A DNA stretch of 64,000 nt from Leucobacter tardus (lineage in GTDB: Bacteria > Actinomycetota > Actinomycetes > Actinomycetales > Microbacteriaceae). Shown here in pieces: positions 31,027 through 31,056 of the stretch. Positions within the stretch are counted from its first letter, which is position 1; every line of letters begins with the position of its first letter. The translations under genes were made by a program, and so were the position numbers. A model generated the notes under the pieces. That model was not told where the DNA came from and made no database searches. It saw nothing but the letters and a program-made list of their open reading frames with translations. The DNA lies in the NCBI RefSeq assembly GCF_017583045.1, contig NZ_JAGFBF010000005.1, positions 248,001 through 312,000 of the forward strand, read 5' to 3'.

Positions 31027-31056
31027 ACACTACGCAAGGTCACGAACGGATAACAA
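31027..31056 (-). promoter_or_regulatory. rpf promoter with MtrA-like direct repeats
   Basis: On the minus strand TTGTTA (31056-31051) and TAGTGT (31032-31027) form -35 and -10 with an 18-nt spacer. GTTAT-CCGTTC-GTGAC (31054-31039) overlaps the -35: two GTNAY half-sites 11 bp apart, nearly the same element as before the M23 peptidase. Transcription would start near 31019, giving a leader of about 118 nt. Confidence 0.55.

Follow-up and report, generated by a model that had tools for sequence, protein, structure and literature searches.

Conserved 11-bp-period direct repeats before wall-hydrolase genes of Leucobacter are probable MtrA sites

A head-to-tail repeat with an 11-bp period is typical of the DNA sites of OmpR-family regulators. 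Direct repeats are frequent among such sites (PMC3353115), and the best-matching described examples are those of MtrA, the response regulator of the MtrAB system. The C. glutamicum MtrA box is an 8-bp direct repeat with a 3-bp linker, and its targets include mepA, mepB, nlpC and rpf2 (PMC3353115; PMC9599347); sites close to the -10 are associated there with repression (PMC3353115), and rpf2 and nlpC are among the repressed genes (PMC9599347). The M. tuberculosis MtrA motif is cG(T/A)nA(C/T)c, directly repeated after a four-base gap, and the regulon contains rpfA-E and ripA (PMC6265350).

The window analyzed here, a 64,000-nucleotide stretch of a Leucobacter tardus contig, contains two elements of closely related build on its minus strand: GTTAT-CCGTTC-GTGAC before rpf, and GTGAC-CGTTTC-GTGAT before the gene of an M23 peptidase (Table 1). 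Both lie exactly where the first-pass annotation of this DNA had located them, its description of them as GTNAY halves arrayed in tandem direct repeat with an 11-bp period is true of each, and the downstream genes do encode wall hydrolases, as it had claimed. What it had called alike linkers are so in part only: some of the likeness is just the C beside each half-site, a base that is invariant or nearly so in the M23 set described below. The 11-bp period is shared with the C. glutamicum MtrA regulon, as are Rpf, NlpC/P60 and wall-peptidase (mepA, mepB) targets (PMC3353115), but the half-site there is (A/G)TAACAAT and here GTNAY. The degenerate repeat, its four-base gap and targets of the rpfA-E and ripA kind are shared with M. 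tuberculosis (PMC6265350), which, however, belongs to another order of actinobacteria and has further targets in ftsI, wag31 and fbpB.

Table 1. Coordinates of the features discussed, counted from the first letter of the window
Feature	Position	Strand	Details and basis
MtrA-type box of rpf (candidate)	31039..31054	-	11-mers GTTATCCGTTC / GTGACCTTGCG, core GTTAT-N6-GTGAC; sequence and conservation
Putative -35 of rpf, TTGTTA	31051..31056	-	overlapped by the first half-site; sequence, inference
Putative -10 of rpf, TAGTGT	31027..31032	-	abuts the second 11-mer unit; TANNNT kept
rpf, secreted resuscitation-promoting factor	30224..30901	-	PF06737 (transglycosylase-like), 108.9 bits; LysM PF01476
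MtrA-type box of the M23 peptidase gene (candidate)	21453..21468	-	GTGAC-N6-GTGAT; sequence and genus conservation
Secreted M23 peptidase	20617..21414	-	Pfam PF01551, 73.6 bits
EamA transporter frame	21465..22736	-	PF00892; stop codon 21465-21467 inside the M23 box
H-type pseudoknot of the rpf leader (candidate)	30945..31013	-	compensatory changes within and between genera
Pseudoknot P1	31013-31005 with 30984-30976	-	arms GCGAAGGAT / ATCCTTCGT
Pseudoknot P2	30994-30988 with 30951-30945	-	arms CTCGCCC / GGGCGAG

Counting does not distinguish these two elements from their background. The window has 6 occurrences of GTNAY-N6-GTNAY where 3.6 are expected (21 of 100 shuffles reach 6); for a more stringent pattern, taken with 3 mismatches, the figures are 15 and 10.8. 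The genome holds 117 matches, counted per strand; since GTNAC is its own reverse complement, many of them are counted on both strands, and unrelated sites are among them. (A reversed-pattern control differed in composition and was not taken as a null.) The bare pattern is thus not enriched, by counting, in the window or in the genome. Two matches to it mean little alone. Conservation was therefore used to test the observation, and the notion that both elements are chance look-alikes, compatible as it is with these counts, also has to be judged on it.

Thirty M23 loci of the genus Leucobacter were retrieved with the M23 protein of the window. A perfect element lies upstream of the gene in 28 of them (26 when the count is restricted to a fixed -450..-50 window), with the consensus GTAACCTGTTCGTTAT; five equal-size control windows of the same loci each yield 0/30. 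The two GT..A cores, and the C next to each half, vary little or not at all in sequence that has otherwise drifted. The element of the window also overlaps the stop codon of the upstream EamA gene, as the first-pass annotation had noted. In most species a -35-like CTGGCA stands 18 bp ahead of a TAACCT that lies within the element, and the M23 element therefore covers the core promoter; CTGGCA has been lost at the M23 locus of the window's own species and of one other genome (G040). The other four of the genome's five M23 genes have no perfect element upstream.

At rpf the perfect element recurs in the same place and in the form GTTAYC-N4-YGTGAY at each of the seven loci from genera g1, g43 and g76, with a TANNNT -10 standing 6-8 nt past the second half-site in every one. 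The overlap with the -35 proposed earlier for the rpf of the window is borne out by a plausible TTGTTA, followed downstream by a -10 of this TANNNT type. The perfect element is absent from 20 rpf loci of genera g5, g14, g28, g50, g62 and g65, and a near match in the opposite orientation occurs at some of the g28 and g50 loci. The rpf site is not conserved family-wide; its perfect form is confined to three of the rpf-bearing genera examined. The distribution of rpf is itself patchy: of 54 genomes in the genus just 2 have this rpf, and of 200 in the family 25 have a PF06737 protein.

An element that marks wall hydrolases would be expected at further genes of this kind, which is an independent prediction. 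The genome's single NlpC/P60 gene carries GTGACAATTTCGTGAT, 96 bp upstream of its first start codon, and the perfect element is found in the same region at 29 of 30 loci of this family in the genus (0-1/30 in control windows). Most of these loci have three consecutive head-to-tail 11-bp units, GTGACCTGAGC-GTGACATTCCC-GTGATCTTCGG, and a few have four; the units are followed by an invariant TTA...CT that is compatible with a -10. The element is also present upstream of relatives in Arthrobacter, Klugiella and Canibacter. GTAACGGATCAGTAAC stands some 50 bp ahead of the start of a gene for a secreted protein with a CHAP domain, and four related genes of other genomes are preceded by similar sites.

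These facts refute chance resemblance, a reading that we now consider scarcely credible: the M23 and NlpC/P60 elements are conserved with controls near zero, and the rpf element is perfect in 7 of 7 loci of three genera. On the pattern alone the pair in the window is not significant; it is its conservation, as read from the compared loci, that makes it so. Judged in this way, the elements are real, evolutionarily conserved, functional control sites. The first-pass annotation had proposed a shared wall-growth regulon and had named a lack of enrichment near wall genes as one finding that would speak against it. The proposal is upheld by the elements before rpf, M23 and NlpC/P60 genes, by the NlpC/P60 and CHAP genes as carriers beyond the original pair, and by the conservation of the M23 and NlpC elements in the genus. 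Similar elements also precede genes of surface proteins, one SpaA-like by Pfam (L008:1501-1516), the other (L148) recognized by its N-terminal sequence only.

The genome encodes eight proteins with an OmpR-type DNA-binding domain (Trans_reg_C). One of them, L058, is MtrA: it scores 377 bits against NF040689 (cut-off 300), aligns with M. tuberculosis MtrA (2gwr) over residues 2-226 (E 8.1e-102), and retains the recognition-helix stretch ADTRLVNVHVQRLRAK nearly unchanged. The frame directly downstream encodes an MtrB-like kinase. The elements of the window fit the published M. tuberculosis direct-repeat motif. All of this is in keeping with the suggestion that the 11-bp period reflects a regulator of the OmpR family and that MtrA is the likeliest one, and MtrA is accordingly the inferred binder of the elements. 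The 11-bp direct-repeat period is general to OmpR/PhoB proteins, so that another of the eight, such as the RegX3-like L059 or the PhoB-like L060 and L061, might be proposed in its place. But L058 alone passes an NCBIfam equivalog cut-off, and does so as MtrA. PhoP-type sites are GTTCAC repeats, and the letters of the motif are closer to published MtrA sites than to these. We regard a different regulator of this kind as improbable, slightly more so than the GlnR-like protein L057, which is the main contender.

The case for L057 is that the elements would be GlnR boxes, bound by an orphan OmpR-family nitrogen regulator. L057 has an OmpR-type DNA-binding domain (PF00486) and a degenerate-looking receiver. 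The site of GlnR is likewise a tandem (5+6+5), of equal period and with an overlapping motif, GTnAC-n6-GTnAC in S. venezuelae and gTnAc-n6-GaAAc in S. coelicolor, and Streptomyces MtrA itself binds GlnR boxes (PMC10704036). The genome also has GTAACCGTGCCGTAAC, of the GTAAC-N6-GTAAC form, ahead of its ammonium transporter gene (L096:1501-1516), and this one is probably a GlnR box. The wall elements share with the GlnR box of actinomycetes the tandem layout, an OmpR-family protein and the GTnAC halves (PMC10704036), but differ from it at the third letter of the second half; in GlnR boxes that half is typically GaAAc or GTnAC. Wall elements end in GTTAT, GTGAT or GTGAC, and their second half seldom has A as its third base, in contrast to GaAAc and GTAAC: the M23 elements have T there in 25 of 28 cases and G in the other 3, rpf has G in 7 of 7, and neither set shows the gTnAc-n6-GaAAc form. 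M23 and most NlpC elements have T as their last letter (GTTAT, GTGAT); C is the final base of some rpf units and of some tandem NlpC units. The genes concerned are wall hydrolases (rpf, M23, NlpC/P60) and include no nitrogen-assimilation genes, which are the targets of GlnR. As a set they correspond to MtrA targets of C. glutamicum, where nitrogen is run by AmtR and not by GlnR. GlnR is, on this balance, an unlikely binder of the wall elements, and it is a good deal more likely that they are tandem operator sites of MtrA, forming a wall-hydrolase regulon. The known MtrA circuit of wall growth probably operates in Leucobacter as well.

Further elements lie elsewhere. A stretch without clear coding signal contains GTCACCGATCTGTCAC twice, in identical form and at a distance of 20 bp (L093:1501-1536, G000:C1:946879-946914). 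GTTACC-N4-CGTTAC is found near ileS at L139, L146 and L160, two of which have a divergent gene for an ABC transporter ATPase resembling those of osmoprotectant importers; these elements would fit an osmotic branch of the MtrA regulon. The same form precedes an amine-oxidase-like gene, mostly divergent from that of a solute-binding protein, at L128, L141, L142, L154, L169 and L171, and here a nitrogen site of GlnR type is the more likely reading.

How MtrA would act can be modeled from the placement of its presumed sites. Each GTNAY half would fall within one 11-bp unit bound by one MtrA protomer, with phosphorylated MtrA lying head-to-tail along one face of the DNA. At the rpf and NlpC/P60 promoters the last unit abuts the putative -10, and the array replaces or overlaps the -35, which is the geometry of a class-II activator; at the M23 genes the element sits on the core promoter itself, a geometry tied to repression in C. 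glutamicum. The geometry suggests that rpf and nlpC are activated, and the overlap with the core promoter that M23 genes are perhaps repressed. The sign of regulation is nevertheless uncertain, because C. glutamicum MtrA represses rpf2 and nlpC (PMC9599347), whereas the boxes of rpf and nlpC here lie upstream of the -10 in activator-like fashion.

The rpf transcript may carry a second control device. Between the promoter and the start codon lie four segments that are complementary in pairs and follow one another as P1, P2, P1', P2'; their pairing is kept with different letters in relatives of several genera (P1 is 9 bp in the L065 rpf leader). When each genus is taken separately (only six sequences each), all 500 shuffles fall short of the observed paired percentage and covariation score, and the signal falls when the partners are slid by one column. 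Because MAFFT, run on all rpf leaders together, put P1 of different genera out of register, the pseudoknot was examined one genus at a time and by exchanging arms between genera. A covariance model built from genus g14 finds convincing matches only before rpf; matches that score below the rpf leaders were taken for chance hits, as were two of 35-38 bits that lack an rpf downstream. No Rfam family matches the pseudoknot, and the single-strand fold of the window's own leader is no more stable than its shuffles (z -0.9), with a folding program that cannot represent pseudoknots. Many rpf leaders in other families of the order contain the c-di-AMP riboswitch RF00379 (L205, L207, L214, L215, L218, L220, L225, L227, L229 and L233), and a pair of interleaved helices with the same layout is present in some of them; RF00379 was not detected in the scanned Microbacteriaceae rpf leaders. 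The leader pseudoknot may be a pared-down derivative of the 5' part of that riboswitch, or a new RNA switch. It is tentatively proposed that in this family rpf is under two layers of control, an MtrA-type activator box and then, in the place of the c-di-AMP riboswitch, a previously undescribed cis-regulatory RNA of ~70 nt with an H-type pseudoknot; for the latter role, a possible one, the covariation is a lead rather than a demonstration.

The MtrA circuit of wall hydrolases, known in mycobacteria, corynebacteria and streptomycetes, would by these findings be extended to the Microbacteriaceae. Since the site consensus is highly conserved and the promoter geometry clear, the sign of control is testable at each hydrolase gene. 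The wall hydrolases may answer to one regulator in opposite ways, with some (rpf, nlpC) raised and another (M23) held back.
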